Positions 3,193-45,728 of a stretch of 64,000 nucleotides of DNA are shown piece by piece (the first letter of the stretch is position 1; every line of letters starts with the position of its first letter). Origin of the DNA: Lachnospiraceae bacterium. GTDB taxonomy: Bacteria > Bacillota > Clostridia > Lachnospirales > Lachnospiraceae. The notes under the pieces are model-generated. The model was not told the DNA's origin. It did not search any database and saw nothing but the letters and a program-made list of their open reading frames with translations. The DNA is taken from positions 186,001 to 250,000 of the forward strand of contig JAETOL010000003.1 of assembly GCA_021771755.1 (NCBI GenBank). The letters run 5' to 3'. Both the position numbers and the translations under genes were made by a program.

Positions 3193-6100
3193 ATGATCGA
3201 CTTTATGGTGATTTCAACACGTAGTACGAAGCGTGGCATAATAGAAATCTATCCAAAGTTCATTATAAAAAAAAGTTCTGATCTGATGATTCGAGGTGGT
3301 GATTTCTATGCTATCTGGATTGAAGAACGTGGTTTATGGTCTACGGACGAACAGGATGCTTTGCAGCTTATTGACTATGAACTGGATAGATACGCAAAGG
3401 AAAACCGCCAGCGTTTTGACTCTGATATAAAAGTCCTGCATATGTGGGATGCTGAATCCGGGATGATCGATTCCTGGCATAAATATTGTCAGAAACAAAT
3501 GAGAGATAATTTTCATACGTTGGATGACAAACTTATATTTTCCAATACAGAAACCAATAAAAAAGACTACGCCAGTAAAAAGCTGAATTATCCGCTTGAA
3601 GCTGGTGATTTGTCTGCCTATGACAAGTTGATGTCCACCTTATATTCCGAAGAAGAACGACACAAACTTGAATGGGCGATTGGCGCTATTGTATCTGGAG
3701 AATCTACAAAGCTGCAAAAATTTATGGTTCTGTATGGCGCTGCCGGAACAGGAAAATCCACGGTGCTTAATATTATTCAGCAGCTTTTTGAAGGATATTA
3801 TTCCGTATTTGATGCGAAAGCTCTTGGTTCGTCAACAAATTCTTTTGCCTTGGAGGCGTTTAAGAATAATCCATTGGTAGCCATTCAACATGATGGGGAT
3901 TTATCCAGGATCGAGGACAACACAAGACTGAATAGTCTGGTTTCGCACGAATTGATGACTGTGAATGAGAAGTTTAAATCAACCTATTCCAATCGCTTTA
4001 AATGTTTTCTTTTTATGGGTACCAATAAACCAGTAAAGATTACGGATGCTAAATCAGGCTTGATCCGAAGGCTGATTGATGTATCTCCATCTGGAAATAA
4101 ACTGAATCCGAGAGAATACAAGGATACAGTAAAGCAGGTTGGATTTGAATTGGGAGCGATTGCGTATCATTGCCAGGAAGTATATTTGGATAACCCTGGA
4201 AAATATGACGACTATATTCCGCTAACCATGCTTGGGGCATCGAATGATTTCTACAATTTTATTATTGATTCGTACCATGTGTTTAAGAAAGAAGACGGAA
4301 CAACGTTAAAGGCTGCGTGGGAAATGTACAAAACCTATTGTGAAGAAGCGAAGGTCGCGTTTCCATTTTCGCAGCGGGTATTTAAAGAAGAATTAAGGAA
4401 CTATTTTCGTGATTTCCAGGAACGCTTTAATCTTGATGACGGTTCAAGAGTTCGTAGTTATTATATCGGATTTAGAACTGAAAAATTTGAAGATCAGACA
4501 ATAGATGTGCAGGCAAAGCATCATACCGATGTCAGGAAGATTAAATTTGAGGAAGGTGTGCCATCTATATTTGATCAGATGTGTTCTGATTGTTTTGCTC
4601 AATATGCTACAGCGAAGGAAACACCAGCAAAAAAATGGGAGAACGTAAAAACAAAATTATCAGATCTTGACACATCAAAAACTCATTATGTAAAAGTTCC
4701 AGAGAATCATATTGTAATTGATTTCGATATTCCAGATGAGAATGGAAATAAATCATTTGAAAAGAATGTCGAAGAAGCCAGTAAATGGCCGCCTACATAT
4801 GCAGAGCTTAGTAAAAGCGGATGCGGAGTACATCTTCATTATATTTATACAGGAGATCCCGCACAACTGAGCCGTATATATGACGACCATATTGAAGTTA
4901 AAGTGTTCACAGGTAAAAGTTCATTACGGCGGAAGCTGTCACAGTGCAACGATTTGCCCATCGCGACAATTAGCTCTGGTTTACCACTGAAAGGAGAAAG
5001 CAAAATGGTAAATTTTGAAGCGGTTCAAAGCGAAAAAGGGCTTAGGACACTGATTAAGCGGAATCTTAATAAAGAGATTCACCCAGGTACTAAGCCGAGC
5101 GTAGACTTTATTTACAAGATACTCGAAGACGCATATGCCAGTGATCTAAACTATGATGTGACAGACATGCGAAACAATGTGTTGGCATTTGCAGCAAACA
5201 GCACGCATCAATCTGATTATTGTATTAAACTGGTAAATAAAATGCAGTTTAAGTCGGAAGATGCGTCCACAGCAACGAAGAACGATGGGGCGAAGCTTGT
5301 ATTTTACGATATTGAGGTTTTTCCTAACCTGTTCCTTGTGAATTGGAAGATTGAAGGGAAGGAAAAGCCCGTTGTAAGAATGATTAACCCGTCTCCAGGC
5401 GAAATTGAAGATTTGATGCGATTTCGTCTTGTAGGGTTTAACTGCCGGAGATACGACAATCATATTTTGTATGCGAGACTTATGGGCTATACGAATGAGC
5501 AGTTGTATCGTCTGTCGCAGAAAATTATCAATGGTGAACCGAACTGTTTTTTTGGGGAAGCTTATAATGTTTCCTATACGGATGTATATGACTTTGCATC
5601 TGCTGAAAATAAGAAGAGCCTGAAGAAGCTTGAAATTGAGATGGGAATCCATCATCAGGAGTTAGGACTGCCATGGGATCAGCCTGTGCCAGAAGAATTA
5701 TGGACGAAAGTTGCTGAGTATTGTGATAACGATGTAATTGCAACAGAGGCAGCATTCCATTATCTGAAAGCAGATTGGACGGCAAGACAGATTCTGGCGG
5801 ATTTAGCTGGCATGACAGTGAACGATACTACCAATACTCTTACACAGAGAATTATATTTGGGAATAATCGTAAGCCGCAGAGTGAGTTCCATTATCGAAA
5901 TCTGGCGGATCCCGTTTATGATATGGATGAGGAAACATATGCATTCTTAGCTGAAGCATGCCCCGAAATGATGGAGAAAACGCATGGCGAGGATGGAAGC
6001 CTTCTTCCATATTTTCCTGGATACACGTTCGATCATGGAAAATCAATGTATCGAGGAGAAGAAGTTGGAGAAGGTGGATATGTATATTCCGAGCCTGGTA

Positions 6101-7389
6101 TGTACGTTGATGTGGCGTTGCTTGATATTGCATCTATGCATCCGCACAGTGCAATCGCAGAAGTTCTCTTTGGAGTAAGATTCACAACCGCATTCCGGGA
6201 GATTGTGGAAGGACGTGTCAGCATTAAACATGAGGCATGGGACATTGTAAATACAATGCTGGATGGAAAACTGACACCTTATATTCAGAAAGTAATTGAC
6301 GGCGAATTGACATCTAAAGATTTAGCAAATGCTTTGAAAACGGCAATCAATTCTGTTTATGGTCTGACATCTGCATCCTTCGATAATCCGTTCCGTGATC
6401 CGAGAAATAAAGATAATATTGTTGCTAAGCGTGGAGCTCTGTTTATGATTGACCTTAAAAACGAGGTACAGAAACGGGGCTTTACTGTTGCACATATTAA
6501 GACAGACTCGATCAAGATTCCGAATGCTACACCGGAGATTATTCAGTTTGTTATGGATTTCGGAAAAAGATATGGCTATACCTTTGAACATGAGGCTACA
6601 TACGAGCGGATGTGCCTGGTAAACGATGCAGTTTATATTGCGAAGTATAAGGACAGCGGCGAGTGGACGGCTACCGGTACTCAGTTCCAGATTCCTTATG
6701 TGTTCAAGAAGCTGTTTAGCAGAGAAGAAATCGTATTTGAGGATATGTGTGAAACAAAATCTGTGAGCAGCGCTTTATATTTGGACATGAATGAGGGACT
6801 GCCGGATGTATCCGAGTATGAAAAGAAATTGTCAAAAGCAGAGAGCGATTACAAAAAAGGATTGCTTTCTGATACGACTTTTGAGTCAACTTGTACAGAA
6901 CTGTCAGAGCCCATTTCAAAAGGACATAACTATCGTTTCATCGGAAAAGTAGGACAATTCTGCCCGATTAAGGACGGTGCCGGAGGCGGTTTGCTGACGC
7001 GTGAAAAAGATGGAAAGTATTATGCTGCAACAGGATCAAAGGGATATCGCTGGTTAGAATCAGAGATGGTAAAAGAACTCGGTAAGGAAAACGATATTGA
7101 CCGGAAGTATTATGACAATCTTGTTGACGAGGCAGTAAAGACCATTTCACAATACGGTGATTTTGAGTGGTTTGTTTCTGATGATCCTTATATAAAAGAA
7201 CTGGGAGCAAACGATGCAGATGTAGATTGCGGTCCTCCATGGGCAATGCCTTGCGGGGAGGAAAAATATGCAACCTGTTATGATTGCCCGTGTTTCAGTG
7301 ATGACCAGAGCCATATGACATGCGGGCTTGGATACGATATTTCAAGTATTATTATGAGACGGGTTATGAACCCGCCGGAAAACAACTAA
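3193..7389 (+). CDS. SF3 helicase - AEP primase-like - family B DNA polymerase fusion
   Basis: This 1398-residue protein appears to carry three replication activities. Residues about 130-420: D5/P4-type superfamily 3 helicase with Walker A GAAGTGKST at 182-190, a Walker B-like acidic stretch (VAIQHDGD) and a C-terminal winged-helix-like part. Residues about 430-640: a primase-polymerase (AEP)-like domain with DFD (D510, D512), a SGCGVHLHY box (H547) and an IEVK strand (E568). Residues about 700-1330: family B polymerase with exonuclease motif DIEVFPN (D706, E708), motif A DIASMHP (D978), motif B K-x4-NSVYG near 1049 and motif C KTDS (D1105). The last 55 residues hold six cysteines (1346-1377), a possible metal site. 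ATG 3193 follows GGGGAG. An SSB-like gene follows by 18 bases. Confidence 0.85.
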   Translation: MIDFMVISTRSTKRGIIEIYPKFIIKKSSDLMIRGGDFYAIWIEERGLWSTDEQDALQLIDYELDRYAKENRQRFDSDIKVLHMWDAESGMIDSWHKYCQKQMRDNFHTLDDKLIFSNTETNKKDYASKKLNYPLEAGDLSAYDKLMSTLYSEEERHKLEWAIGAIVSGESTKLQKFMVLYGAAGTGKSTVLNIIQQLFEGYYSVFDAKALGSSTNSFALEAFKNNPLVAIQHDGDLSRIEDNTRLNSLVSHELMTVNEKFKSTYSNRFKCFLFMGTNKPVKITDAKSGLIRRLIDVSPSGNKLNPREYKDTVKQVGFELGAIAYHCQEVYLDNPGKYDDYIPLTMLGASNDFYNFIIDSYHVFKKEDGTTLKAAWEMYKTYCEEAKVAFPFSQRVFKEELRNYFRDFQERFNLDDGSRVRSYYIGFRTEKFEDQTIDVQAKHHTDVRKIKFEEGVPSIFDQMCSDCFAQYATAKETPAKKWENVKTKLSDLDTSKTHYVKVPENHIVIDFDIPDENGNKSFEKNVEEASKWPPTYAELSKSGCGVHLHYIYTGDPAQLSRIYDDHIEVKVFTGKSSLRRKLSQCNDLPIATISSGLPLKGESKMVNFEAVQSEKGLRTLIKRNLNKEIHPGTKPSVDFIYKILEDAYASDLNYDVTDMRNNVLAFAANSTHQSDYCIKLVNKMQFKSEDASTATKNDGAKLVFYDIEVFPNLFLVNWKIEGKEKPVVRMINPSPGEIEDLMRFRLVGFNCRRYDNHILYARLMGYTNEQLYRLSQKIINGEPNCFFGEAYNVSYTDVYDFASAENKKSLKKLEIEMGIHHQELGLPWDQPVPEELWTKVAEYCDNDVIATEAAFHYLKADWTARQILADLAGMTVNDTTNTLTQRIIFGNNRKPQSEFHYRNLADPVYDMDEETYAFLAEACPEMMEKTHGEDGSLLPYFPGYTFDHGKSMYRGEEVGEGGYVYSEPGMYVDVALLDIASMHPHSAIAEVLFGVRFTTAFREIVEGRVSIKHEAWDIVNTMLDGKLTPYIQKVIDGELTSKDLANALKTAINSVYGLTSASFDNPFRDPRNKDNIVAKRGALFMIDLKNEVQKRGFTVAHIKTDSIKIPNATPEIIQFVMDFGKRYGYTFEHEATYERMCLVNDAVYIAKYKDSGEWTATGTQFQIPYVFKKLFSREEIVFEDMCETKSVSSALYLDMNEGLPDVSEYEKKLSKAESDYKKGLLSDTTFESTCTELSEPISKGHNYRFIGKVGQFCPIKDGAGGGLLTREKDGKYYAATGSKGYRWLESEMVKELGKENDIDRKYYDNLVDEAVKTISQYGDFEWFVSDDPYIKELGANDADVDCGPPWAMPCGEEKYATCYDCPCFSDDQSHMTCGLGYDISSIIMRRVMNPPENN

Positions 7390-10625: not shown

Positions 10626-10816
10626 AATCTGTAGGTAGCGTAATTGTGAGCTGGGATTTCTCACACGGAAAAGATGTAGGCGTTTTGCTTGTTGGGAAGC
10701 AGGTGAATGGAAAAGTAGAAGTTATCAATGCTTACCAGGGTGAGGAGGCATACGAACTATATTGTAGACTCACAGTTAAGAAGAAAAATCAGCCGGGCAG
10801 TTTTGTGGAGGTGTAA
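10622..10816 (+). CDS. conserved phage protein of unknown function (64 aa)
   Basis: ATG 10622 is preceded by GGGAGGAAAAAG, a strong Shine-Dalgarno sequence. The protein begins MKSVGSVIVSWDFSHGKD and contains GVLLVGKQVNGKVEVINA and EEAYELYCRLT. This short beta-rich domain is repeatedly seen in Clostridia phages and has no known role. It sits between the zinc-ribbon protein and the toxin-domain fusion gene. Confidence 0.55.
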   Translation: MKSVGSVIVSWDFSHGKDVGVLLVGKQVNGKVEVINAYQGEEAYELYCRLTVKKKNQPGSFVEV

Positions 10817-10820
10817 AGGA

Positions 10821-11768
10821 ATGAGTTTTCAGTATGATCAGTATTTAACACAACACCGCTCCAATGTAAAAAGAGGATTTGACTGGATTGCTGATAATCT
10901 GCCGGAATTACTGGTCGATGGATTTGACTATGGTTGGCAGATCGAGTTTGCACATGATAAATCTAAAGATGGGTCGGACGAGTACGAGGCTTACGACGCG
11001 TATTTTTATGGCGGAAACCGCTCTTATGCGGTTGTGCAGAATTATCGAAAGGCGTGGTTGCTGCATTTACATAGAAATCCTCATCACTGGCAGCACTGGA
11101 TTCTGATTAACGACGATCCCGAAGAAGGAGAAATTATTCTGGGGATGCCATACAACTATGTCATCGAGATGATTTGTGATTGGTGGGCATTCAGTTGGCA
11201 GAAAGGAAAGTTGGATGAGATATTCAGTTGGTACGATGAACATTCCAAGTATATGAAGCTGCATCCAAAGACCCGGAAAAACGTTGAAGAGATTCTGGCG
11301 AGGATGAAAAATAAGTTGGATGAAATAGCTCTAACAGCTAACGAGTCGATACTGGAGCATCACGGAATTAAAGGACAGAAGTGGGGCGTAAAAAACGGTC
11401 CGCCGTATCCTATTGATAAATCATCCGGACGTGGTACAATAGTGAAAAATGCTATTGAGTCGGGCGAAGTTTCTAAGAAAATCAACCGTGAGAAACAGAT
11501 GCGTCATACGAAAAGCGGTCATACTCCAGGGAGAAGTTATCTGGATGGAGACCTTGAGTATGCTCAGGAGTTGGTAGATAAATACAGCGGAAAAGGCGAA
11601 GCAATCATGGATAGACATGGAAATTGGACTAATAAAGAAAAATTTGATGATTCCGAGATAATAGGGACTCATGTGGATACTGACGGATCAGAAACCAGAA
11701 CAAACAAGGGCATTATTTCCTATTCGAAAACTGGAACACATGTTTATCCGAGAAAGGAGAGAAAATAA
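10821..11768 (+). CDS. DUF5662 - HHGIKGQKWGV motif - Ntox50 toxin-domain fusion
   Basis: A 315-residue composite. Residues 1-165 match DUF5662 (AHDKSKDGSDEYEAYDAYF, several His/Trp). Residues 180-190 are HHGIKGQKWGV, a tag-like motif also present in variant form in the head-region gene at 24916. Residues about 229-315 resemble polymorphic toxin type 50 (Ntox50): HTPGRSYL, a YSGKGEAI stretch, NKEKFDDSEIIG, then SYSKTGTHVYP at the end. Ntox50 domains are predicted nucleases. GGAGGTG precedes ATG 10821. The gene at 11770 follows one base after its stop and is a candidate partner. That the motif directs the toxin anywhere is inference. Confidence 0.7.
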   Translation: MSFQYDQYLTQHRSNVKRGFDWIADNLPELLVDGFDYGWQIEFAHDKSKDGSDEYEAYDAYFYGGNRSYAVVQNYRKAWLLHLHRNPHHWQHWILINDDPEEGEIILGMPYNYVIEMICDWWAFSWQKGKLDEIFSWYDEHSKYMKLHPKTRKNVEEILARMKNKLDEIALTANESILEHHGIKGQKWGVKNGPPYPIDKSSGRGTIVKNAIESGEVSKKINREKQMRHTKSGHTPGRSYLDGDLEYAQELVDKYSGKGEAIMDRHGNWTNKEKFDDSEIIGTHVDTDGSETRTNKGIISYSKTGTHVYPRKERK

Positions 11769-19381: not shown

Positions 19382-19491
19382 ATGCTCTTTTTTGCGCGCG
19401 AAAAATACATTCCCTTTTATGAAGAGAGAGGTAAAATAGGCATTTTAGAAATGACATCCTCTTTTTATGTTTTTGTGAAGGAGACTTATAA

Positions 19492-19782
19492 ATGTTAGAA
19501 AGTAAATTTCAGGCAAATTTAATCAAAAGATTAAAAAAGATGTTCCCTGGCTGTATGGTTATGAAAACCGATCCAACTTATATTCAGGGTATTCCTGATT
19601 TGCTAATTCTGCATAATGACAAGTGGGCCTCCCTGGAATGTAAAAAAAGCGCTGGCGCAAAAAAGCAACCCAATCAAGAATATTATGTCGGACGAATGAA
19701 CGAGATGTCGTTTTCAAGATTTATTTGTCCGGAGAACGAGGAGGAAGTATTAAATGAACTTCAACAATCATTCAAGCCTTGA
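19492..19782 (+). CDS. VRR-NUC domain nuclease
   Basis: A 96-residue stand-alone VRR-NUC domain (PD-(D/E)XK superfamily): MLESKFQANLIKRLKK (the N-terminal Glu), KTDPTYIQGIPDLLIL (catalytic Asp in IPDLL) and ASLECKKS (the ExK element). Viral VRR-NUC proteins act on branched or single-strand-containing DNA during recombination or packaging. GAAGGAGAC precedes the ATG. It overlaps the next nuclease gene by 29 bases. Confidence 0.85.
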   Translation: MLESKFQANLIKRLKKMFPGCMVMKTDPTYIQGIPDLLILHNDKWASLECKKSAGAKKQPNQEYYVGRMNEMSFSRFICPENEEEVLNELQQSFKP

Positions 19783-20308
19783 GGGGCAGCACGCTTTTCT
19801 GGGAGCCAGTAAGTATCATTGGATTAACTACGATGAAGAAAAAATCGCAGAATCGTATTCGAAATTTATGGCAACTCAAAAGGGTACGGTTCTACATGCT
19901 TTTGCAGCACAGTGTATTCTGTTGGGACAGAAATTACCTAAGTCGCAGAAAACATTGAATATGTATGTGAACGATGCAATCGGTTATAAAATGACGCCGG
20001 AACAAATTCTTTATTATTCAGATAATTGCTTTGGAACAGCGGACTCAATAGTATTTCGAAATCGATTGTTGAGAATTCACGATTTGAAGACCGGAGTGAT
20101 TCCGGCTCACATGGAGCAGCTTGAAATATACGCTGCTCTTTTTTGTTTAGAGTATGCAGTGAAACCATCAGATATTGATATTGAACTGCGGCTCTATCAA
20201 AATAATGAGATCGTTTATCACAATCCAACCACCGAAGATATTGTTCCAATTATGGACAAGATCATAACCTTCGATAAAATCATCAACAAAATTAAACAGG
20301 AGGGCTAA
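19754..20308 (+). CDS. PD-(D/E)XK nuclease (RecB/Cas4-like)
   Basis: A 184-residue protein with the pattern of RecB-type phage nucleases: GTVLHAFAAQCI with the N-terminal His, FGTADSIVF with the motif-II Asp, LRIHDLKTG (DxK catalytic element) and MEQLEIYAALF (the QxxxY helix). This is the order expected of a RecB-family exonuclease core, though shorter than most. With the VRR-NUC protein it forms a recombination/DNA-processing pair placed before the DFDGD-motif gene. Confidence 0.75.
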   Translation: MNFNNHSSLEGQHAFLGASKYHWINYDEEKIAESYSKFMATQKGTVLHAFAAQCILLGQKLPKSQKTLNMYVNDAIGYKMTPEQILYYSDNCFGTADSIVFRNRLLRIHDLKTGVIPAHMEQLEIYAALFCLEYAVKPSDIDIELRLYQNNEIVYHNPTTEDIVPIMDKIITFDKIINKIKQEG

Positions 20309-20311
20309 ACC

Positions 20312-23056
20312 ATGAATCGCATTGTCGAGGAAATTTTAATGCATTACGGAATGCCAAGGCGTTCTGGACGTTATCCATGGGGTTCTGGTGATAACCCTTA
20401 TCAGCACAGCGGAGATTTTCTGAGTCGTGTACAGGAATTAAAGAAGTCTGGACTTAGCGAAACAAAAATTGCTGAAACAATGGGATTAACGACAACCCAG
20501 CTTCGGACTCAGATGAGCCTGGCAAAAGATGAAAGACGGACGCTTCAGGTTGCGACTGCAAAAGGACTCAGAGAAAAGGGCTATAGCTTAAATGAGATTG
20601 CTGAGAAAATGGGATTTAAAAATGATTCTTCTGTAAGATCGCTTTTGAACGCTGATTCGGAAGTCCGTATGAATCAGGCAAAAACAACTGCTGAATTTTT
20701 AAAAAAGCAGATTGATGAAAAGGGCATGATTGATGTCGGAACAGGCGTAGAGCGTGAACTTGGAATTTCAAAAGAAAAATTGAATCAAGCCCTTTATATT
20801 TTGGAGATGGAAGGTTATCCAGTCTATGGCGGGCGTGTTCCGCAGGCAACAAATCCTGGGAAATTTACAACTTTAAGTGTAGTGTGTCCTCCTGGAACTG
20901 AGCACAGGGATATTTATGACTTTGAAAACATTCACTCATTACGTGATTATATTTCGTATGATGAAGGAGAGTCATTTAGAAAATCATTTGAATATCCATC
21001 AAGTATGAGTTCTGATCGATTAAAAATTCGGTATAAGGATGAAGGTGGGGACGACAAAGACGGTGTTATTGAAATTCGTCGGGGAGTTGCTGATTTGTCG
21101 CTGGGGAATTCTCATTACGCACAGGTTCGCATTATGGTGGATGGAACGCATTATTTGAAAGGAATGGCAGTTTATTCTGATAATCTTCCTGAAGGAGTGG
21201 ATGTGCTTTTCAATACAAATAAAAAATCCGGAACTCCGATGACCGATGTTCTCAAAAAAGTGGAAGACGATCCAGATAATCCATTTGGCTCTTTGATTAA
21301 AGAACATGGCGGTCAAAGTTATTATGATGATCCGAAAGGGAAGTATACCGATCTAATCACTGGAAAAAAGCAATCACTGTCTCTTATCAATAAACGGGCA
21401 GAAGAAGGCGATTGGGGAGAATGGAGCGATCATTTGCCTTCTCAGTTTCTGTCAAAGCAAAGTATGCAACTGATCAATAAACAGTTAGGTTTGGCGGCTG
21501 CGGATAAAAAGGCAGAGTTTGATGAAATTTGTTCTCTGACCAATCCAACGGTAAAGAAGGCACTGTTGAAATCATTTTCTGATGATTGTGATGCAGCAGC
21601 GGTTCATTTGCAGGCAGCGGCATTGCCGAGACAGAAATATCAGGTTATTCTCCCACTTACTTCTATAAAAGATAACGAAGTATATGCACCGAATTATAAA
21701 GATGGAGAAACAGTTGCGTTGATTCGCTATCCGCATGGAGGTACATTCGAAATTCCCATTCTGACAGTCAATAATAAACAGCCGGAAGGGCGAAGAGTTT
21801 TGGGAACTACGCCGGCAGATGCAATCGGAATCAACAAGAAGGTTGCAGACCGTCTATCTGGTGCCGACTTTGATGGCGACACGGTTATGGTTATTCCGTG
21901 TAATTCTTCCAGAAGCAAAGTGAAGATCACATCCACGCACACTTTAGATGGACTTAAAGACTTCGATCCAAAGATGTCTTATGGAACCATTAAACGAGGG
22001 GACAATTATTATAATGCCAACGGACAGAAGATCAAAGTCATGAAGAATACTCAGACGGAAATGGGAAAGATAACAAACCTCATTACCGATATGACACTCA
22101 AGGGAGCGATACAGGATGAACTCGCAAGGGCGGTTCGTCATAGCATGGTAGTTATTGATGCTGAGAAACATAAACTCGATTATAAGCAAAGTGAGATCGA
22201 TAATGGTATCTCTTCATTAAAAAAGAAATACCAGGGAACCGTTGACGCAGATGGTCGTTACCATGAAGGGGCGGCAACTTTAATTTCCCGCGCAAAATCT
22301 GAGACACCTGTTCTTAAACGGAAAGGAAGTCCCATAATCAATGAGGATGGTTCGCTTTCCTATAAGGAAGTCGTGGAGGAGTATACGGATAAAGATGGTA
22401 AAGTCAAAGTCCGTACTCAGAAGAGTACAAAAATGGCAGAAACAAAAGATGCCAGAACTTTATCATCCGGGACTCCTCAGGAGGAAGCATATGCCGATTA
22501 TGCTAATAAGATGAAATCCTTGGCTAATCAAGCCAGACGGGAGATGGTGAACAGCGGAAAGATAGCCTACTCCGCTTCTGCGAAAGCAGTATACCAGCCG
22601 GAGGTAAAGTCATTAATGGCTAAGCTTAACGTGGCATTGATGAACGCCCCTCGTGAAAGGCAGGCACAGGTAATTGCTAACGCTACCGTTGCCGCAAAGA
22701 AGAAAGATAATCCTGATATGACAAAAGCTGAGATTAAAAAAGCAAATCAGCAGGCATTGTCGGTGGCACGAGCATCCGTGGGGGCAAAGAGAAGCATGAT
22801 TGAAATTACAGATCGGGAATGGGAAGCAATCCAGGCAGGAGCAATCAGCGAGAATAAGCTTACTCAGATTTTAAATAATACGGACATCGATACTCTTAGG
22901 CAAAGAGCAACGCCTCGTGCAACCACTGCTTTAAGTACAGCCAAGGTAAATCGTATTTCAGCAATGAGAGCATCTGGATACAGCACTTCTGAGATAGCGG
23001 AAGCTCTTGGCGTATCGACGTCTACTGTCTCTAAGTATTTGAATGGAAAGGGGTGA
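20312..23056 (+). CDS. RNA-polymerase-like DFDGD double-psi-barrel protein with HTH domains
   Basis: A 914-residue protein. Residues about 45-115 carry two helix-turn-helix segments (SETKIAETMGLTTTQL, SLNEIAEKMGF), and the last 30 residues a third (TSEIAEALGVSTSTVSKYL). In the middle, RYPHGGTFEIPIL (R472) leads after 35 residues to LSGADFDGDTVMVIP with DFDGD at 519-523. That is the metal-binding motif and context of the large-subunit barrel of cellular RNA polymerase (RxP...NADFDGD), and of YonO-type phage and RNAi polymerases. A lysine-bearing stretch around 275-310 (HYLKGMAVY, NTNKKSG) could be the partner barrel. The gene directly precedes the packaging and structural module. Confidence 0.7.
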   Translation: MNRIVEEILMHYGMPRRSGRYPWGSGDNPYQHSGDFLSRVQELKKSGLSETKIAETMGLTTTQLRTQMSLAKDERRTLQVATAKGLREKGYSLNEIAEKMGFKNDSSVRSLLNADSEVRMNQAKTTAEFLKKQIDEKGMIDVGTGVERELGISKEKLNQALYILEMEGYPVYGGRVPQATNPGKFTTLSVVCPPGTEHRDIYDFENIHSLRDYISYDEGESFRKSFEYPSSMSSDRLKIRYKDEGGDDKDGVIEIRRGVADLSLGNSHYAQVRIMVDGTHYLKGMAVYSDNLPEGVDVLFNTNKKSGTPMTDVLKKVEDDPDNPFGSLIKEHGGQSYYDDPKGKYTDLITGKKQSLSLINKRAEEGDWGEWSDHLPSQFLSKQSMQLINKQLGLAAADKKAEFDEICSLTNPTVKKALLKSFSDDCDAAAVHLQAAALPRQKYQVILPLTSIKDNEVYAPNYKDGETVALIRYPHGGTFEIPILTVNNKQPEGRRVLGTTPADAIGINKKVADRLSGADFDGDTVMVIPCNSSRSKVKITSTHTLDGLKDFDPKMSYGTIKRGDNYYNANGQKIKVMKNTQTEMGKITNLITDMTLKGAIQDELARAVRHSMVVIDAEKHKLDYKQSEIDNGISSLKKKYQGTVDADGRYHEGAATLISRAKSETPVLKRKGSPIINEDGSLSYKEVVEEYTDKDGKVKVRTQKSTKMAETKDARTLSSGTPQEEAYADYANKMKSLANQARREMVNSGKIAYSASAKAVYQPEVKSLMAKLNVALMNAPRERQAQVIANATVAAKKKDNPDMTKAEIKKANQQALSVARASVGAKRSMIEITDREWEAIQAGAISENKLTQILNNTDIDTLRQRATPRATTALSTAKVNRISAMRASGYSTSEIAEALGVSTSTVSKYLNGKG

Positions 23057-23065: not shown

Positions 23066-23311
23066 ATGGCAGCGCAATGTGCACTAACAACGTTTGATAA
23101 TCCTTTTGACCCATTTGAACAGTTTACTTCTTGGTTCCTGTTTGATGAAGAGAAAGGCTATCATTCAACGTCATACTTAGGAAGAATTGTTCGAACTTCT
23201 GATCAGTTTTCTGATGAAGAAAATGAGATTGAGATTGAACGAGCAATTGATGAAATAATTAAGTATGACTTTAGAGACATTTACAGAAAAGTAAAACGTT
23301 CAAAAGGATGA
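23066..23311 (+). CDS. conserved small phage protein (81 aa)
   Basis: An 81-residue acidic protein (TTFDNPFDPFEQFTSWFLFD, then GRIVRTSDQFSDEENE and ERAIDEIIKYDF). It follows the DFDGD gene by 9 bases and belongs to a family found next to that gene in related phages, as far as I recall. Function unknown; a role as accessory factor to the larger protein is an inference from adjacency. Confidence 0.6.
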   Translation: MAAQCALTTFDNPFDPFEQFTSWFLFDEEKGYHSTSYLGRIVRTSDQFSDEENEIEIERAIDEIIKYDFRDIYRKVKRSKG

Positions 23312-24566: not shown

Positions 24567-24923
24567 ATGGAGAGCATATTAACATCTGTTAAGAAAATGC
24601 TCGGGATTACGGAAGAGTATGAACACTTTGATGCTGATTTGATTATGCACATTAATTCGGTGTTTTCGATAATAAACCAGCTTGGCGTCGGACCGTCAGA
24701 AGGATTTATGATAACAGATAAAAGTGCGGTTTGGAAGGAGTTTATTTCAGACGAAGCAAAGCTTCAGATTGTCAAATCTTATATGTATCTGAAAGTAAAA
24801 CTTCTGTTTGACCCGCCTCTTGGCTCTGCCGTAATTGAAGCAATGAACAGACAGATTAGTGAATTTGAATGGCGGCTCAATGCCGCTGCTGATTATAAAG
24901 AGGAGGAAAATCAAAATGAATAA
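24567..24923 (+). CDS. head-tail connector-like protein
   Basis: A 118-residue helical protein (FDADLIMHINSVFSIINQLGVG, then AKLQIVKSYMYLKVKLLFDPP and NRQISEFEWRLNAAADY), a pattern of gp6-type connector/adaptor proteins in HK97-like phages. Start 24567 is set by GGAGG 8 bases upstream. It overlaps the next gene by 8 bases. Confidence 0.65.
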   Translation: MESILTSVKKMLGITEEYEHFDADLIMHINSVFSIINQLGVGPSEGFMITDKSAVWKEFISDEAKLQIVKSYMYLKVKLLFDPPLGSAVIEAMNRQISEFEWRLNAAADYKEEENQNE

Positions 24924-25452
24924 CGAGATGCTGTATCATCATGGCGTGAAAGATATGAAGTGGGGAGTTCGGCGTTATCAGAACCGAGATGGAACTTTGA
25001 CGGCAGCCGGAAGGCAGCATAAAGCATCCGAACAGGATTCGTCGTACAAATCGGAACGGAATAAGAGAATTGCACGAGTCGGTATCACTACAGCTACTGT
25101 TGCGGCGGCAGCCATTTATGTCCATAAAAACCCGGAAGCAATCGGTAGGGTCGTTTCACACTTTCGTGGAGTGAAAATGAGTGATCTTAATCAGAAAGCG
25201 GTTAATGCTGGAAAACAGTATGTAAAGAATGCTGCAAAAGGAGTAGGAGAAGGCATTCATGAGGCAACGAAGGAGGCTCCGAAAAAAGCAGCTAAAACAG
25301 TGATTACAGGCGTTGTGCTCAACCAAACAAAAAGAGCGCTTGATTCTACTGTTGGAAAAGAAGAAAGTGCGAGAATCTTTCAGGCAAATGATAATAAGAA
25401 AATCGGAAAGTTCTGGAAAATTTCTCCGGAAGACAGGGATGACGATGATTAA
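24916..25452 (+). CDS. phage protein with N-terminal HHGxKxxKWGVRRYQN motif
   Basis: A 178-residue basic protein whose first residues hold HHGVKDMKWGVRRYQN (from residue 8), followed by a TAAGRQHK stretch, a hydrophobic helix (ITTATVAAAAIYVH) and Ala/Lys-rich helices. The same motif family occurs at the centre of the toxin-domain fusion at 10821. The motif is frequent in Clostridia phage head-region proteins; its role is unknown to me. The gene lies directly before the large terminase gene behind GAGGAGGAAAA. Confidence 0.6.
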   Translation: MNNEMLYHHGVKDMKWGVRRYQNRDGTLTAAGRQHKASEQDSSYKSERNKRIARVGITTATVAAAAIYVHKNPEAIGRVVSHFRGVKMSDLNQKAVNAGKQYVKNAAKGVGEGIHEATKEAPKKAAKTVITGVVLNQTKRALDSTVGKEESARIFQANDNKKIGKFWKISPEDRDDDD

Positions 25453-25466: not shown

Positions 25467-27215
25467 ATGGCATTATCAAACACTGCCGTTCCAAAATACT
25501 ACGGCATGTTTCGAGATGCCGTAATGTGCGGAGAAATTCCCATCTGTAAAGAAATAGAAATGCAGATGCAGTTAATCGATGAATTGATCGATGATCCGAG
25601 ATACTATTACGATGATCAAGCTGTGGAGGGATGGATACGTTATTGCGAAAATGAACTGACATTAACGGACGGCTCCGATTTAAAACTTCTTGACTCTTTT
25701 AAGTTATGGGGTGAGGACTTATATGGTTGGTATTACTTTATTGAGCGAAGCGTGTATGTTCCGAACGAAGAAGGTTATGGGGGAAGATATGTCAATAAGA
25801 GAATAAAGAAGAGACTCCGTAATAAACAGTATCTAATCGTTGGCAGAGGTGCAGCCAAGTCTTTATATGATTCTTGCATACAGTCATTTGAAGAAAATAT
25901 TGATACATCTACCACGCATCAAATCACGACTGCGCCGACCATGAAGCAGGCGGAAGAAATCATGTCGCCCATCCGTACTGCGATTACAAGAGCGAGAGGA
26001 CCACTATTTAAGTTTTTAACGGAGGGGTCATTACAAAATACGACCGGTTCCAAAGCCAATCGAGTAAAGCTTGCCAGTACCAAAAAAGGTATCGAAAATT
26101 TTCTTACAGGTTCTTTGATCGAAGTACGTCCGATGTCAATTGCTAAACTTCAGGGGTTACGACCAAAGGTGGCTACAATCGACGAGTGGCTCTCCGGAGA
26201 TACAAGAGAAGACGTTGTTGGCGCCATTGAGCAGGGAGCTTCTAAGGTTGATGATTACATTATTGTGGCAACCAGTTCGGAAGGAACTGTTCGTAACGGA
26301 GTCGGCGATACAATCAAAATGGAACTGATGGACATTCTCAAAGGTGATTATGTCAATCCGCACGTATCTATCTGGTGGTATAAACTCGATTCCATAGATG
26401 AAGTATCAGATCCTGATATGTGGTTAAAGGCGAACCCCAATATTGGAAAAACTGTCAGTTATGAAACTTATCAGTTAGATGTGGAGAGAGCAGAGAAAGC
26501 ACCCGCAGCCCGTAATGATATTCTGGCAAAACGTTTCGGACTTCCGATGGAAGGGTATACATATTATTTCACTTATGAGGAAACGCTTCCACAAAAACGC
26601 AGACTATCCTATTGGCAAATGCCGTGTGCGTTGGGCGCCGATCTTTCACAAGGCGATGATTTCTGCGCCTTTACATTTTTGTTTCCTCTGTCAGATGGTG
26701 CTTTTGGTATAAAAACCAGAAATTACATTTCTTCATTAACTCTAATGAAACTTCCAGCAGCCATGAGAATTAAATACGATCAATTCATGAAAGAAGGCAG
26801 CCTGATTGTTTTGGAAGGAACAGTCCTTGACATGATGGATGTTTATGAAGATTTGGATAATCACATTGTTGAATGTGGTTATGACGTTCGATGTTTTGGA
26901 TATGACCCCTATAATGCAAAAGAATTTGTGGATAGATGGTCATCGGAAAACGGTCCATTCGGAATCGAAAAAGTAATTCAAGGTGCAAAGACGGAATCCG
27001 TTCCTTTAGGTGAGTTAAAGAAACTCTCTGAGGAGCGGATGCTTTTGTTTGATGAAGAACTTATGACATTCGCCATGGGGAATTGCATTGTCATGGAAGA
27101 TACAAACGGAAACCGTAAGCTTTTAAAGAAAAGATACGAAGCAAAAATCGATGCCGTTGCGGCTATGATGGATGCTTTTGTTGCTTATAAGTTAAACAGA
27201 GACGCATTCGAATAG
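25467..27215 (+). CDS. terL: terminase large subunit
   Basis: A 582-residue Terminase_1-type (HK97-like) large subunit. The ATPase part has a variant Walker A GRGAAKS near residue 132, Walker B ATIDEWLS near 237 and a coupling stretch VATSSEG. The nuclease domain starts with LGADLSQGDDF near residue 390 and ends with KIDAVAAMMDAFVAYK, whose Asp residues are the expected metal ligands. It pumps DNA into the prohead and cuts the concatemer. ATG 25467 follows AAGGAGTG. Confidence 0.95.
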   Translation: MALSNTAVPKYYGMFRDAVMCGEIPICKEIEMQMQLIDELIDDPRYYYDDQAVEGWIRYCENELTLTDGSDLKLLDSFKLWGEDLYGWYYFIERSVYVPNEEGYGGRYVNKRIKKRLRNKQYLIVGRGAAKSLYDSCIQSFEENIDTSTTHQITTAPTMKQAEEIMSPIRTAITRARGPLFKFLTEGSLQNTTGSKANRVKLASTKKGIENFLTGSLIEVRPMSIAKLQGLRPKVATIDEWLSGDTREDVVGAIEQGASKVDDYIIVATSSEGTVRNGVGDTIKMELMDILKGDYVNPHVSIWWYKLDSIDEVSDPDMWLKANPNIGKTVSYETYQLDVERAEKAPAARNDILAKRFGLPMEGYTYYFTYEETLPQKRRLSYWQMPCALGADLSQGDDFCAFTFLFPLSDGAFGIKTRNYISSLTLMKLPAAMRIKYDQFMKEGSLIVLEGTVLDMMDVYEDLDNHIVECGYDVRCFGYDPYNAKEFVDRWSSENGPFGIEKVIQGAKTESVPLGELKKLSEERMLLFDEELMTFAMGNCIVMEDTNGNRKLLKKRYEAKIDAVAAMMDAFVAYKLNRDAFE

Positions 27216-31061: not shown

Positions 31062-31706
31062 ATGAAACTTGCATGGGATAAAACCGGCGAGCGTCTCTAC
31101 GAAACTGGTGTGGACAGAGGCGTGCTGTATCCGTTTTTGGAGGGAGCATATGCAGCGGGGGTTGCCTGGAATGGTCTTACCGCAGTAAATGAAAGTCCCT
31201 CTGGAGCAGAACCCACTGCTTTGTGGGCTAACAATAATAAATATGTAACTTTGATGTCGGCAGAGGAACTTGGCTTGACGATTGAAGCCTATACCTATCC
31301 GGAAGAGTTTGAACCGTGTGATGGTTCAGCGGAACTTTCGGAAGGCGTTACAATCGGTCAGCAGGATCGTAAGCATTTCGGCTTCAGTTACCGTTCTTTG
31401 ATTGGTAATGATGAAAGTGGAAATAATCACGGCTACAAGATTCATCTGGTTTACGATTGCCTTGCTTCGCCAACAGAAAAGAACCGAAGCAGCGTAAACG
31501 ATTCACCGGATGTATCACCTTTCTCATGGGAAGTAAGCACAACGCCGGTGCCGGTAGAGGGTTATAAATCAACATCTATGCTGACAATTGATTCCACGAA
31601 AATCCCGGCAGTTAAATTGGCTGCGATTGAAGAAAAACTGTATGGAACAGCCGCATCGGAGCCGACACTCCCGTTACCGGATGAGATTGTTGAGCTTTTG
31701 AAATAA
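31062..31706 (+). CDS. major tail (tube) protein, copy 1
   Basis: A 214-residue tail tube-type protein (GVAWNGLTAVNESPSGAEPT, LWANNNKYVTLMSAEELG, IEAYTYPEEFEPCDG, TIGQQDRKHFGFSYR, SPFSWEVSTTPVPVEGYK). These are the standard landmarks of siphophage major tail proteins in Firmicutes. AAGGAGG precedes the ATG. The next gene is a close paralogue. The ring-forming core is present in both, so this copy is probably functional. Confidence 0.85.
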   Translation: MKLAWDKTGERLYETGVDRGVLYPFLEGAYAAGVAWNGLTAVNESPSGAEPTALWANNNKYVTLMSAEELGLTIEAYTYPEEFEPCDGSAELSEGVTIGQQDRKHFGFSYRSLIGNDESGNNHGYKIHLVYDCLASPTEKNRSSVNDSPDVSPFSWEVSTTPVPVEGYKSTSMLTIDSTKIPAVKLAAIEEKLYGTAASEPTLPLPDEIVELLK

Positions 31707-31719: not shown

Positions 31720-32448
31720 ATGGCAAAACTTGCATGGGATAAAACCGGCGAGCGTCTCTACGAAACTGGTGTGGATCGTGTGGTTTTATACAAAAGCCGA
31801 ACAAAAGGTATTGCGTGGAATGGCGTGACTGCAATAAATGAAAATCCTTCTGGAGCAGAGCCAACATCTCTTTGGGCGAATAACGGTAAATACGTCACTT
31901 TAATGTCCGCGGAAGAACTCGGTCTGACAATTGAAGCTTATACCTATCCTGACAATTTTCTTAAGTGTCTTGGGGAAGAAGAACTTTCACCTGGCGTTAC
32001 AATCGGACAGCAGGATCGTGAGCATTTCGGTATTAGTTACCGGACTTTTATTGGTAATGATGAAAGCGGAAACAATCACGGATACAAACTTCATCTTATT
32101 TATGACTGTCTCACATCTCCTACCGAGAAAGGACATAATACGGTAAACGATTCTCCGGATGTTTCTCCGTTCTCATGGGAAGTAAGCACAACACCGGTAT
32201 CAGTAGAAGGGCATAAGTCAACAGCTATGCTGACGATTGATTCAACTAAGTTTAAGAATGCTGGTCTTATGAACGCATTAAGAGGGATTGAGGAAGCTTT
32301 ATACGGAACGGAAAAAGTAAATGCGTGGCTTCCGTTGTTTTCCGAAATCGAAGAACTGATAGAATTTCATAGATACATCAGAGATTCGGCAGGCAATTTA
32401 CTTATGGATAGCATGGGCAATCCATTATTATCAAGCGTTTACGAATGA
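31720..32448 (+). CDS. major tail (tube) protein, copy 2 with C-terminal extension
   Basis: A 242-residue paralogue of the preceding protein, colinear over about 200 residues with high identity (LWANNGKYVTLMSAEELG, TIGQQDREHFGISYR, SPFSWEVSTTPVSVEGHK). It lacks about 8 residues near position 25 and has an extra end (EFHRYIRDSAGNLLMDSMGN) resembling the DSxGN turns seen in the phage's fibre and FN3 proteins. The two copies could build a mixed tube or serve alternative roles. Confidence 0.85.
   Translation: MAKLAWDKTGERLYETGVDRVVLYKSRTKGIAWNGVTAINENPSGAEPTSLWANNGKYVTLMSAEELGLTIEAYTYPDNFLKCLGEEELSPGVTIGQQDREHFGISYRTFIGNDESGNNHGYKLHLIYDCLTSPTEKGHNTVNDSPDVSPFSWEVSTTPVSVEGHKSTAMLTIDSTKFKNAGLMNALRGIEEALYGTEKVNAWLPLFSEIEELIEFHRYIRDSAGNLLMDSMGNPLLSSVYE
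31726..31775 (+). repeat. 50-bp identical repeat between tail tube paralogues
   Basis: Bases 31726-31775 are identical to 31065-31114 (both start AAACTTGCATGGGAT and end GGTGTGGA). Identity at synonymous sites is broken elsewhere in the two genes, so this stretch points to a recent duplication or gene conversion at the 5' ends. Confidence 0.9.
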
Positions 32449-40905: not shown

Positions 40906-43440
40906 ATGGCTTCCAAAAAGAAGAAAGCAACAAAAGTTGTCGTAAAGCTTCAGAATAATACCGACCGTACCGTTTATGCTACATGGACGTGGAATGGTAA
41001 GAATACAGATCATTATAAAGTGATTTGGAAGTATGCAACTGGAAATGGGGTTGCTTTTATCGGTAGTGAAACCACAACGACAGCGAAGCAGAGTGTGTGG
41101 ACAGCACCTTCTAATGCTACAAAAGTATCTTTTACAGTAAAACCGATATCCAAGACATATAAGAAAAATAAAAAACAGGTTTCTTATTGGACATGCGATT
41201 GGTCTACAAGTGTAAGTTATACATTCAAGATCGATACAAAGCCTGAAACCCCGTCCGTTCCCAAAGTTTCCATTGAAAAATTCAGCTTAACGGCGGAAGT
41301 TGACGTATACGATAAGAATACAACAAATGTTGAATTCTATGTTGTAAAGAATGATAAATCAAAATTTACAAGCGGGGAAGCGGCTGTAAAAACAAATCAC
41401 GCTGCTTTTTCGTGTACGGTCGCTGCGGGTGCAGAATATAAAGTTCGTGCCCGCGGTATTCGGGTTTACACGGTTACTGTAAAAGAAGCTTATAAATCCA
41501 AAGGAAAAACGAAATACAAAAACGTTAAGCAAACCAAAAAAGAATATGGAACATGGTCCGAGTATTCCGATGGGGCAGGAACAATTCCAACAGTTCCATC
41601 AAAAATTAATACGATTAAAGCTATTTCAACGACTGGAGTACAGCTCTCGTGGAGTAAAGTCTCCAATGCCACAGGGTATGATGTGGAATACACTACAAAG
41701 AAAATGTATTTTGATAGCTCTAAAGAAACGCAGACGGTTTCCGTAACTTCTGCTGTGACTCATGCGGAGATCACCGGCTTAGAATCTGGACAGGAATGGT
41801 TCTTTCGAGTTAGGGCAACGAATGCTCAGGGTGAGTCTGGATGGTGTACTCCGATTTCCATTATTTTGGGTAAGCCGCCAGCGGCACCAACTACTTGGTC
41901 TTCTACAACGACTGCCGTGGTTGGAGAAAGACTTGGGTTATATTGGGTGCATAATTCAGAGGATGGATCCAGTCAGACGTATGCACAGATTGAAATCATT
42001 GTGAACGGTGTAAAAAGAACCGAAACTATAAAAAACAGCACCAATGAAGATGAAAAAGATTTAACCAGTTCATATTTTATAGACACATCAAAATATAACG
42101 AGGGTACAGTCATTCAATGGCGTGTTCGGACGAGAGGTGTTATTGAAACATATGGGGATTGGTCAATTCAGAGAAAAGTTGATATTTATGCGCCACCAAC
42201 ATTGGAACTGGGAACCAGAGGTGTAAATAACTGGTGTTGGGATACATTCAACTTTCTTACCGATACAATTTATACGGCATATGGAATAGGAGGAAGTTTA
42301 TCGGAGGTGATAACAGCATTTCCGTATTATATTACGGCTACCTCAGGACCATCGACACAGACTCCGATTGGATATCACATTACGATCAGTGCTAACGAGG
42401 GATATGAAGCTCTTGATTACAATGGCAAAGAAAAATGGGTAAATGCCGACGAGGAAGTTTATTCGAAATATTTTGATGCCGTTACCGGCCATAGTCTGTT
42501 TGTAATGATTAATGCTTCGGATATTGATCTGGAGAACAATGTTTCTTACACAATCCATTGTACAGTTAGTATGGATTCCGGTCTCACGGCTGAAGCCTCC
42601 TCGGAATTTATTGTCGCATGGACAGATGAGGAGTATGTTCCCGATGCAGAAATTGGTATTGATGAAGAAACTCTTACAGCCTATATACGTCCTTATTGCG
42701 AGGACGAAGACGGTTATCTGATTGACGACATTGTTCTTTCTGTTTACCGACGTGAATTTGATGGAACGTATACAGAATTGGCAAGCGGAATCGAAAATCA
42801 GCATGTGGATCAAGATGAACTGCTTGATTCTAATAGCGATTTTATTCTGGATAGTTCCGGAAAAGAATTAATAGGAAGAGACGTCAACTCAAGAGCAATC
42901 TTTATTACTGATCCGCACCCTGCGTTAGATTATGCGAGATACCGGATCGTCGCAATGTCTACTATTACAGGAGCAATTAGTTACAGTGATATACCGGGTT
43001 ATCCAATCGGGGAAGAGGCCGCCGTAATTCAGTGGGATGAGGAATGGTCGGAGTTTGACACTTTTACAGATGAAGAAGGAGATGAGATGGAAGAACCGCC
43101 ATGGACGGGATCCATGCTTAAACTTCCTTATAATTTGGATGTATCGGATGAAGGAAATACAGACGTATCTTTTGCAAAGTACATTGGAAGAAGGCATCCG
43201 GTTGCATATTATGGAACTCAGGTTGGAGAAACTTCTACATGGAATCTCGATATTGTAAAGGATGATACGGAAACTTTGTATGCCCTGCGTAGATTAAAAG
43301 CGTATATGGGCGACGTGTATGTTCGTGAACCATCGGGAAGTGGTTACTGGGCAAACGTACAGGTTTCCTTCAGCCAGAAACATTGTGAAGTTACGATTCC
43401 GGTTACTTTAAAAATTACAAGAGTGGACGGGGGTGCTTAA
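40906..43440 (+). CDS. fibronectin type III tail protein
   Basis: An 844-residue protein made of beta-sandwich domains. At least one clear FN3 module lies at about residues 225-320 (SKINTIKAISTTGVQLSWSK, NATGYDVEYTT, GQEWFFRVRATN), with further Ig/FN3-like domains before and after. It occupies the distal tail (Dit) position between tape measure and hub genes. The C-terminal 130 residues (TWNLDIVKDDTETLYALRRL) resemble a distal-tail core. FN3 modules in tails probably bind surface glycans. Confidence 0.75.
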   Translation: MASKKKKATKVVVKLQNNTDRTVYATWTWNGKNTDHYKVIWKYATGNGVAFIGSETTTTAKQSVWTAPSNATKVSFTVKPISKTYKKNKKQVSYWTCDWSTSVSYTFKIDTKPETPSVPKVSIEKFSLTAEVDVYDKNTTNVEFYVVKNDKSKFTSGEAAVKTNHAAFSCTVAAGAEYKVRARGIRVYTVTVKEAYKSKGKTKYKNVKQTKKEYGTWSEYSDGAGTIPTVPSKINTIKAISTTGVQLSWSKVSNATGYDVEYTTKKMYFDSSKETQTVSVTSAVTHAEITGLESGQEWFFRVRATNAQGESGWCTPISIILGKPPAAPTTWSSTTTAVVGERLGLYWVHNSEDGSSQTYAQIEIIVNGVKRTETIKNSTNEDEKDLTSSYFIDTSKYNEGTVIQWRVRTRGVIETYGDWSIQRKVDIYAPPTLELGTRGVNNWCWDTFNFLTDTIYTAYGIGGSLSEVITAFPYYITATSGPSTQTPIGYHITISANEGYEALDYNGKEKWVNADEEVYSKYFDAVTGHSLFVMINASDIDLENNVSYTIHCTVSMDSGLTAEASSEFIVAWTDEEYVPDAEIGIDEETLTAYIRPYCEDEDGYLIDDIVLSVYRREFDGTYTELASGIENQHVDQDELLDSNSDFILDSSGKELIGRDVNSRAIFITDPHPALDYARYRIVAMSTITGAISYSDIPGYPIGEEAAVIQWDEEWSEFDTFTDEEGDEMEEPPWTGSMLKLPYNLDVSDEGNTDVSFAKYIGRRHPVAYYGTQVGETSTWNLDIVKDDTETLYALRRLKAYMGDVYVREPSGSGYWANVQVSFSQKHCEVTIPVTLKITRVDGGA

Positions 43441-44499: not shown

Positions 44500-44505
44500 T
44501 CTTAT

Positions 44506-45708: not shown

Positions 45709-45728
45709 GACGGAGGTGAGAAAATGTA

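Follow-up and report, generated by a model that had tools for sequence, protein, structure and literature searches.

A candidate virion-carried, two-barrel RNA polymerase and a promoter-like early motif in a Lachnospiraceae prophage

The polymerase gene and its operon

The DNA analysed here, referred to as the window, is a stretch of 64,000 nt from a Lachnospiraceae bacterium (GenBank assembly GCA_021771755.1, contig JAETOL010000003.1, positions 186,001 to 250,000 of the forward strand) that carries a prophage whose early region lies mostly to the left of the stretch. The subject of this report is one ATG-initiated open reading frame (ORF) of that prophage (Table 1), whose predicted product is a single-chain, two-barrel RNA polymerase. 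The product matches the PHROG 4291 profile over its full length (residues 3-913, 1352.8 bits). As set out below, the enzyme may be carried in the phage particle and may read a short DNA motif that recurs in front of early genes.

The PHROG catalogue names family 4291 'RNA-dependent RNA polymerase', and a tblastn search found relatives of the window polymerase in 251 of 50,697 phage records, each at less than 60% identity and with GenBank and RefSeq copies treated separately. Arthrobacter (95 records), Gordonia (55), Streptomyces (54) and Lactococcus (13) are among the hosts. Annotations of these relatives range from 'helix-turn-helix DNA-binding domain protein' through 'RNA-dependent RNA polymerase' to 'hypothetical protein', and the homologue in Faecalibacterium phage Oengus is called 'putative RNA polymerase'; the family is thus catalogued already, yet poorly named. 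The family itself is therefore not new, and what seems new is its mode of action. Among 14 control genomes, that of Sulfolobus acidocaldarius was the one that also matched PHROG 4291. Two frames of about 940 aa in two genomes of the host's family, which are possibly distant two-barrel polymerases, matched the profile only over residues 454-582 in the catalytic barrel (G206:C13:318397-318792, E 1.1e-4; G040:C8:19001-19393, E 9.4e-4).

Two alignments were used to examine conservation. A1 holds 56 homologues, the others being 44-84% identical to the window polymerase, and A2 holds 30 sequences with identity down to 42%, including those of phages 1706, P092, Oengus, ReqiPoco6 (Poco6) and OhMyWard. 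The first-pass annotation had placed the arginine of RYPHGGTFE at residue 472 and the DFDGD of SGADFDGDTV at residues 519-523, and both positions are correct. It had also named conservation of the three aspartates as a check on its polymerase reading: D519, D521 and D523 are invariant in 56/56 A1 and 30/30 A2 sequences, as are R472 and P474. The same holds for K283 and K304, which sit in the predicted partner region and are candidates for the partner-barrel lysines; G284 and A286 are likewise invariant near K283. The Pfam RNA-dependent RNA polymerase profile (PF05183) matches 20 of the 30 A2 members at E <= 0.01, with a best value of 3e-5.

An AlphaFold model built from A1 had a mean predicted local distance difference test (pLDDT) score of 80.7 and a predicted template modelling (pTM) score of 0.65. 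When it was compared with the PDB by Foldseek, all nine matches with E <= 0.001 were to QDE-1 or to RDR2 of maize or Arabidopsis; QDE-1 came first (E 1.1e-7 and 1.2e-7) and RDR2 next, and behind them stood the large subunits of cellular RNA polymerases (E about 0.03 and worse). Sequence identity in the nine best matches was 9-12%. Their TM-scores by query length were low (0.22-0.31) and the domain arrangement is uncertain; therefore, only the fold class is claimed. In BFVD, the top match was another phage 'RNA dependent RNA polymerase' (E 8.5e-8), and more distant models came from phages cr118_1, cr50_1 and cr4_1 (E 4e-4 to 1.1e-2), which we take to be crAss-like. Structure prediction, which had been suggested as a further check, thus placed the protein in the fold class of the two-barrel polymerases. 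In searches of the PDB by sequence, the single protein found one repressor only (E 0.79), and the A1 profile found 16 chains, mostly HTH (helix-turn-helix) or designed helical proteins, among them a synthetase-like chain (7u7h, E 0.29) and P23-45 gp96 (8h2n_A, profile positions 490-522, E only 0.61).

HTH segments had been noted at both ends of the protein. The C-terminal one is clear, and HTH_23 and Sigma70_r4_2 match all 30 A2 members at E <= 0.01. The two N-terminal segments are weaker by profile, yet their predicted helices fit two HTH units. DNA_pol3_delta_C matches residues 37-65 (E 6.4e-4, below its Pfam cut-off) in the region of the first segment, and phrog_11457 matches residues 74-105 (E 1.2e-7) in that of the second.

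The polymerase is the third of four genes in the order endonuclease, exonuclease, polymerase, small protein, which the window shares with Mudcat, P092, 1706, OhMyWard and Poco6, and other genes are interspersed in this cluster in the Lactococcus phages P092 and 1706. Those five phages have an endonuclease annotated at the corresponding place. Oengus keeps the same order; its first gene is annotated merely as hypothetical, its exonuclease counterpart as 'cas4 family nuclease', and the small gene 3' of the polymerase is present there as well as in the other five. In the linear records of Mudcat, OhMyWard, Poco6, P092 and 1706, the cluster occupies the right end, and joining the record ends brings it beside the packaging genes. 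The window polymerase is situated just upstream of the packaging module, as the first-pass annotation had stated, with an HNH-like ORF (assigned by eye) at 24083 and TerL at 25467-27215 (TerL_nuclease, E 2e-32). Further upstream, an ORF of 1398 aa (3193-7389) that resembles, by eye, a primase/helicase-DNA polymerase fusion occupies the place of the 'DNA polymerase' gene in the relatives that were inspected.

Table 1. Features of the window and of the adjoining prophage region (window positions, unless G000:C24 is given)
Feature	Position	Strand	Basis
Predicted single-chain two-barrel RNA polymerase, PHROG 4291, 914 aa	20312..23056	+	phrog_4291 profile, AlphaFold, Foldseek
N-terminal linear motif, residues 9-26 (LMHYGMPRRSGRYPWGSG), candidate virion tag	20336..20389	+	predicted disorder, invariant positions
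HTH-like segment 1, residues 36-66	20417..20509	+	predicted helices 36-45, 50-56, 61-88
HTH-like segment 2, residues 93-120	20588..20671	+	predicted helices 93-100, 105-111, 114-120
Candidate partner barrel (DPBB-B-like; DPBB, double-psi beta-barrel), residues 237-365, with K283 and K304	21020..21406	+	strand-rich in model, invariant residues
Predicted catalytic barrel (DPBB-A-like), residues 442-530, with R472-x-P474	21635..21901	+	alignments, predicted model
DFDGD, residues 519-523	21866..21880	+	invariant 56/56 (A1), 30/30 (A2)
C-terminal HTH, residues 873-913	22928..23050	+	HTH_38 E 3.3e-10, Sigma70_r4_2 E 7.7e-8
VRR-NUC-like endonuclease, operon partner	19492..19782	+	phrog_93 E 8.2e-16
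Cas4/RecB-like exonuclease, operon partner	19754..20308	+	phrog_3953 E 7e-84
Small conserved protein after the polymerase	23066..23311	+	phrog_4303 E 2.1e-34
Promoter-like motif copy (CGCGAAAAATACATTCCCTTTTATG) before the endonuclease-exonuclease-polymerase operon	19397..19421	+	2 mismatches to CGCANNNNNTACANNNNCTATNATG
Credible motif copies left of the window	G000:C24 177256, 178106, 178688, 179221, 180019, 180254, 180565, 181845, 185042		CGCANNNNNTACANNNNCTATNATG scan
Small DUF7211-tagged protein beside terminase, tag 24937-24966	24859..25452	+	PF23847 E 1.5e-7
DUF5662 + tag + Ntox50 protein, tag 11358-11387	10728..11768	+	DUF5662 E 1.6e-36, Ntox50 E 8.2e-22

A promoter-like motif before early genes

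A 25-nt motif, CGCA-N5-WACA-N4-CTATNATG, recurs before early genes of the window's prophage. It was scanned for with a fuller pattern, CGCANNNNNTACANNNNCTATNATG, and a shorter one, TTACANNNNCTATAATG. In the prophage, the fuller pattern was found 12 times at <= 3 mismatches (9 at <= 2), compared with 1-4 times in shuffled sequences. Ten of these copies were judged credible, including one with 3 mismatches at G000:C24 179221, and most of them lie just left of the window. Two other matches with 3 mismatches, at G000:C24 200775 and 235971, were judged not credible, and a possible tRNA beside one motif copy was not confirmed. The copy inside the window precedes the endonuclease-exonuclease-polymerase operon and lies 915 nt ahead of the polymerase start. 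A search confined to the window and part of Oengus gave at most one count above control; the early region of the prophage is mostly to the left of the window.

Related phages contain the motif in the same setting. A repeat search in phage 1706 returned a 28-nt sequence containing TTTTACATAYACTATAGTAGA, present as a family of ten copies in front of small early genes, and a word count in the early intergenic gaps of P092, Mudcat and OhMyWard returned the same architecture. The top words in the early gaps of 1706, where they were the commonest, and of P092 were T-rich tracts rather than the motif. Such tracts recur before motif copies in these two Lactococcus phages (L101 and L226) and are possibly terminators separating early transcription units. 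At <= 2 mismatches, the shorter pattern occurred 13 times in P092 (9 exact; shuffles 3-9), 9 times in Mudcat (7 at <= 1; shuffles 0-2), 12 times in OhMyWard (11 at <= 1; shuffles 0-1) and 17 times in 1706 (shuffles 2-7), and the coding strand holds all but one of these 51 copies. In ReqiPoco6, ten motif copies fall within 40932-50280, upstream of the DNA polymerase gene. The structural genes of the window yielded no credible copy, nor did the structural region of ReqiPoco6 (1-26000), and the motif did not exceed chance in sk1 and GTE2, whose annotations lack the polymerase gene, or in the stretch of SP-beta that was examined. The first-pass annotation had suggested a late-gene polymerase from the position of the gene. 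Its two-barrel fold and catalytic residues stand, whereas the late-gene role is not supported in the form in which it was put: the candidate promoter motif precedes early genes and the polymerase's own operon.

We next consider how closely motif and polymerase are associated. The 3.70-Mb host genome contains three exact copies of the motif, all of them on one strand within the early region of the prophage, and the same pattern written backwards occurs 0 times. In 24 polymerase-bearing viral records (47-74 kb, picked by hand: eight of the 13 polymerase-positive contigs selected by the N-terminal tag described below, and 16 other polymerase loci), the motif was found in 23 at <= 2 mismatches, with 133 copies versus 2 for the backwards pattern. 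Of the 133 copies, 130 share the strand of the polymerase, as does at least one copy in 21 of the 24 records. The position before the operon is also kept: among 74 loci, 65 have a motif copy in the 1.3 kb preceding the polymerase start at <= 3 mismatches, and 26 at <= 2. Many of these loci are near-duplicates, and the 26 copies comprise 18 distinct sequences. In controls on the 74 loci, no copy was present on the opposite strand upstream and none in the initial 1.3 kb of the gene, and the backwards pattern was counted 0 times on one strand and once on the other.

Among 200 family genomes, the window's own included, the exact motif was found in four of the five with a full polymerase versus 5 of the 195 without (p 9.5e-6), and the backwards control in one of the 200. 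Twelve genomes had matched PHROG 4291; seven with E values of 1e-4 to 1e-3, five matching the C-terminal HTH only and two residues 454-582 only, were set aside before this count, and one further weak match in the genome G000 was also excluded. The fifth polymerase-positive genome (G163) has no exact copy; its polymerase is near the end of a 32-kb contig, so that the early region was outside the sequence covered.

The virion label and the N-terminal tag

The depositors' record of phage 1706 (EU081845.1) labels the polymerase homologue, orf75, 'structural protein', and the ReqiPoco6 record describes its own homologue as 'similar to Lactococcus phage 1706_gp75 structural protein'. This database label suggests that the homologue in one relative, 1706, is associated with the virion. 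RefSeq (NC_010576.1) names 1706 orf75 'RNA-dependent RNA polymerase', which hides the depositors' clue to its location.

The N-terminus of the polymerase might explain such a location. Residues 1-34 have pLDDT values below 50 and are predicted to be disordered; nevertheless, ten positions there (H11, G13, S18, G19, R20, Y21, P22, G24, S25 and G26) are invariant in 30/30 A2 members. This conserved segment bears a weak resemblance to a tag on head-region proteins, with the consensus HHG[IVL][KL]G[MQ]KWG, that corresponds to Pfam DUF7211 (PF23847); by eye, the tag variant KRNGPPYPLGGGD is close to the polymerase's KRHSGRYPWGSGD. The DUF7211-type tag was found in 75 ORFs of the compared loci, a count that includes duplicates. 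It usually lies no more than 30 aa from the N-terminus, and in the named phages that were read the tagged ORFs are mostly near terminase and portal. In 1706, orf7, which has two tags, is likewise labelled 'structural protein'; orf7 and orf75 are the tag-bearing proteins found in that phage. A home-made hidden Markov model (HMM) built from 71 tags was used to scan 10,687 ORFs. It matched 80 of 85 polymerase ORFs, each match starting in the first 36 residues, and seven of them outscored the best tag-less ORF that is not a polymerase (4.8 bits); 81 tag-less non-polymerase ORFs of this set also show some match. When N-termini were scanned alone against Pfam, the only match for that of Poco6 was DUF7211 (E 0.014, 15.2 bits, with a cut-off of 27), and that of the window polymerase gave no match at E <= 10.

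The tag also leads back to the polymerase. From the 80 tag loci among the first 120 stretches listed, 27 contigs longer than 24.8 kb were picked by tag only, and PHROG 4291 is present in 13 of them, which are all 13 contigs longer than 50 kb (12 clear matches and one weak, E 7.9e-6; one is OhMyWard itself). The polymerase was not found in the 14 shorter contigs, which may be fragments and are uninformative. One viral contig, L067, has six tag-bearing ORFs, five of them downstream of the polymerase.

Ten tagged proteins were scanned for domains. DUF7211 was matched in nine, in two of them below the Pfam cut-off, and the other domains were 2H phosphoesterase, acetyltransferase, and DUF5662 with Ntox50. 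The last combination is found in the window (10728-11768), where the DUF7211 match falls below its cut-off (E 6.3e-5); this toxin-like phage protein with a DUF7211-like tag hints at injected effectors. In Rhodococcus and Gordonia phages (L096:14111-15724, L097:8557-10275, L097:12070-13629), tagged proteins carry 2H-phosphoesterase and acetyltransferase domains, and the 2H-phosphoesterase fold is that of some anti-CBASS proteins. A literature search of partial coverage turned up no paper on the tag or on DUF7211.

Elsewhere in the window, the ORF at 46266-47090 ends in a variable repeat (46985-47075) that is 82% identical to an adenine-rich, template-like copy at 48153-48243, beside which an ORF of 278 aa (48349-49185) is, by eye, reverse-transcriptase-like; the arrangement resembles a diversity-generating retroelement. 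In the tail region, two similar genes in tandem (31062-31706 and 31720-32448) share stretches of 77-100% identity and probably encode duplicated tail proteins.

Interpretation and comparison with known systems

The best reading of these observations, to which we assign a probability of about 0.55, is a virion-carried, early-gene, single-chain two-barrel RNA polymerase with its own promoter. The enzyme would synthesize RNA from a DNA rather than an RNA template. Its disordered N-terminal motif (HYG..RxSGRYPWGSG) would address it to the phage particle, and it would then enter the cell together with the phage DNA. There, its own HTH domains, without a host sigma factor, would direct initiation at CGCA-N5-WACA-N4-CTATNATG sites, driving the early genes and the endonuclease-exonuclease-polymerase operon; the motif copy before the operon would make expression of the polymerase autocatalytic. 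A broader proposal is put forward more tentatively, at somewhat less than even odds: that a large 1706-like lineage of double-stranded DNA phages of Bacillota and Actinomycetota, the present temperate prophage included, runs its own early transcription by means of a small, free, injected polymerase that a short linear address related to the DUF7211 tag packs into the head and that fires from the motif, and that the tag is a general packaging address for injected phage enzymes, borne in this lineage by other cargo as well (2H phosphoesterase, acetyltransferase, Ntox50 toxin).

Several observations weigh against this interpretation. With respect to the motif, the Lactococcus versions lack the CGCA element, the P092 count is near that of its shuffles in spite of nine exact copies, and Oengus has six copies at 3 mismatches only and none at <= 2 (shuffles 0-1). 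One of the 24 viral records (46.9 kb) has no copy and two more have a copy on the opposite strand only. Five of the 195 polymerase-less genomes have one exact copy each; the three that were checked were solitary, with no kin of the prophage in the 20-40 kb around them besides one integrase-like ORF. The phages of this lineage have many genes in common, so that polymerase and motif may occur together through shared ancestry alone. With respect to the virion, a mass-spectrometry basis of the 1706 label is assumed, the best polymerase score with the tag HMM was only 8.7 bits (E 0.66 in 10,687 ORFs), and four of the five polymerase N-termini scanned alone against Pfam gave nothing. Lysogens of temperate members must, in addition, start early transcription without an injected polymerase. 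The chief doubt is whether the motif is recognized by this protein or by host RNA polymerase aided by a phage activator; next come the basis of the 1706 label and the way in which induction of a prophage begins.

In the alternative with host RNA polymerase, which we consider unlikely, the TATAAT of the motif would be a -10 element, the activator would act at CGCA/WACA, and the two-barrel protein would serve in priming or in repair with the nucleases, for instance. The motif does contain TATAAT or TATTAT (TATNAT), which host sigma-A could read, the operon with nucleases is present in six relatives inspected, and the phages carry their own DNA polymerase gene. However, a TTGACA-like hexamer with a spacing of 16-18 nt occurs in only 3 of 41 copies taken from the prophage, OhMyWard, Poco6 and Mudcat, compared with 5.7 expected from shifted positions, and TGn before the -10 in one; many copies of the window's clade have CTTTTATG, which is a poor -10. 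The exact motif does not occur in the 3.7-Mb host genome outside the prophage, and the motif is kept across phages of Lactococcus, an AT-rich genus, and phages of GC-rich hosts. Two phage surveys give GC contents of 63.4% for Arthrobacter and 67.8% for Gordonia (PMC5513430, PMC5559632).

It is similarly doubtful that the polymerase is a non-virion, late-gene enzyme like YonO, made during infection or induction and transcribing the packaging and structural genes downstream. The gene is located just upstream of those genes, the motif copy at 19397 starts an operon that runs towards them, and YonO is reported to transcribe the late genes of SP-beta (PMC5467207). Late genes could indeed be reached by read-through from that copy. 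Against this stand the placement of the motif in early rather than structural regions, the virion label of the 1706 homologue, and a profile alignment with YonO that joins 74 columns only (E 0.025, probability 2%). Two further alternatives are far less probable. A genuine RNA-dependent RNA polymerase would agree with the family's names in PHROG and RefSeq and with QDE-1 and RDR2 as the closest solved folds; we consider it very improbable in view of the association with a DNA motif in the 24 records and at the 74 loci, and such DNA phages are not known to have an RNA stage. The related YonO, moreover, is reported to be DNA-dependent (PMC5467207). The least probable case is a catalytically dead relic retained as a DNA-binding structural protein; the 'structural protein' label in 1706 would suit it, and it is rendered highly unlikely by the invariance of D519, D521, D523, R472, K283 and K304 in 30/30 diverse members.

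If the virion-carried early polymerase is correct, this free enzyme, about 100 kDa in size and with a promoter that can be recognized from sequence alone, would be among the simplest self-contained members of the two-barrel superfamily, useful for asking how a sigma-less polymerase finds promoters. The tag, if it is a packaging address, would flag other injected phage proteins, including candidate counter-defence enzymes and toxins. Several of the 251 phage records with the gene have cultivable hosts.

Injected RNA polymerases are known from N4 and phiKZ-like phages, and gp66 of the crAss-like phage phi14:2 is carried in the virion. According to one paper, crAss-like and P23-45 phages inject RNA polymerases, phi14:2 gp66 is a single-chain two-barrel enzyme, and P23-45 has two such enzymes, the virion gp96, which reads pre-early genes, and the non-virion gp64 (PMC10770324). 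The window polymerase is similar in architecture; however, phi14:2 belongs to a different phage lineage and no sequence match to gp66 was found. The link to P23-45 gp96 covers about 33 positions only, and gp96 forms a fusion with the tape measure protein, whereas the window polymerase is a separate protein that has only a short motif at its N-terminus. QDE-1 and plant RDR2, the best structural matches in the PDB, are eukaryotic RNA-interference enzymes that share 9-12% identity with it and lack a virion context, the PF05183 matches in A2 notwithstanding.

PHROG 4291, with the 'putative RNA polymerase' of Oengus and 1706 orf75, is the window polymerase's own family. In a literature search of partial coverage, we found no promoter, virion tag or role described for this family, and no paper on polymerases or promoter motifs in such phages that, by its title or the start of its abstract, describes the system. 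The words 'promoter' and 'RNA polymerase' are absent from the available main text of the Arthrobacter and Gordonia surveys (PMC5513430, PMC5559632).

Another relevant comparison is with YonO of SP-beta, a DNA-dependent late-gene polymerase for which the authors did not settle the promoter sequence (PMC5467207). Both are prophage-encoded single chains (839 aa in YonO, 914 here) with a two-barrel DxDGD motif, and both genes are upstream of terminase and portal on their strand. Since the kinship found by hhalign is confined to the 74 columns around R-x-P-H...DxDGD, the window polymerase is not filed as a YonO member. The two also differ in motif and in the genes concerned: YonO has DNDGD and transcribes late genes, whereas the window polymerase has DFDGD and is associated with an early-gene motif.

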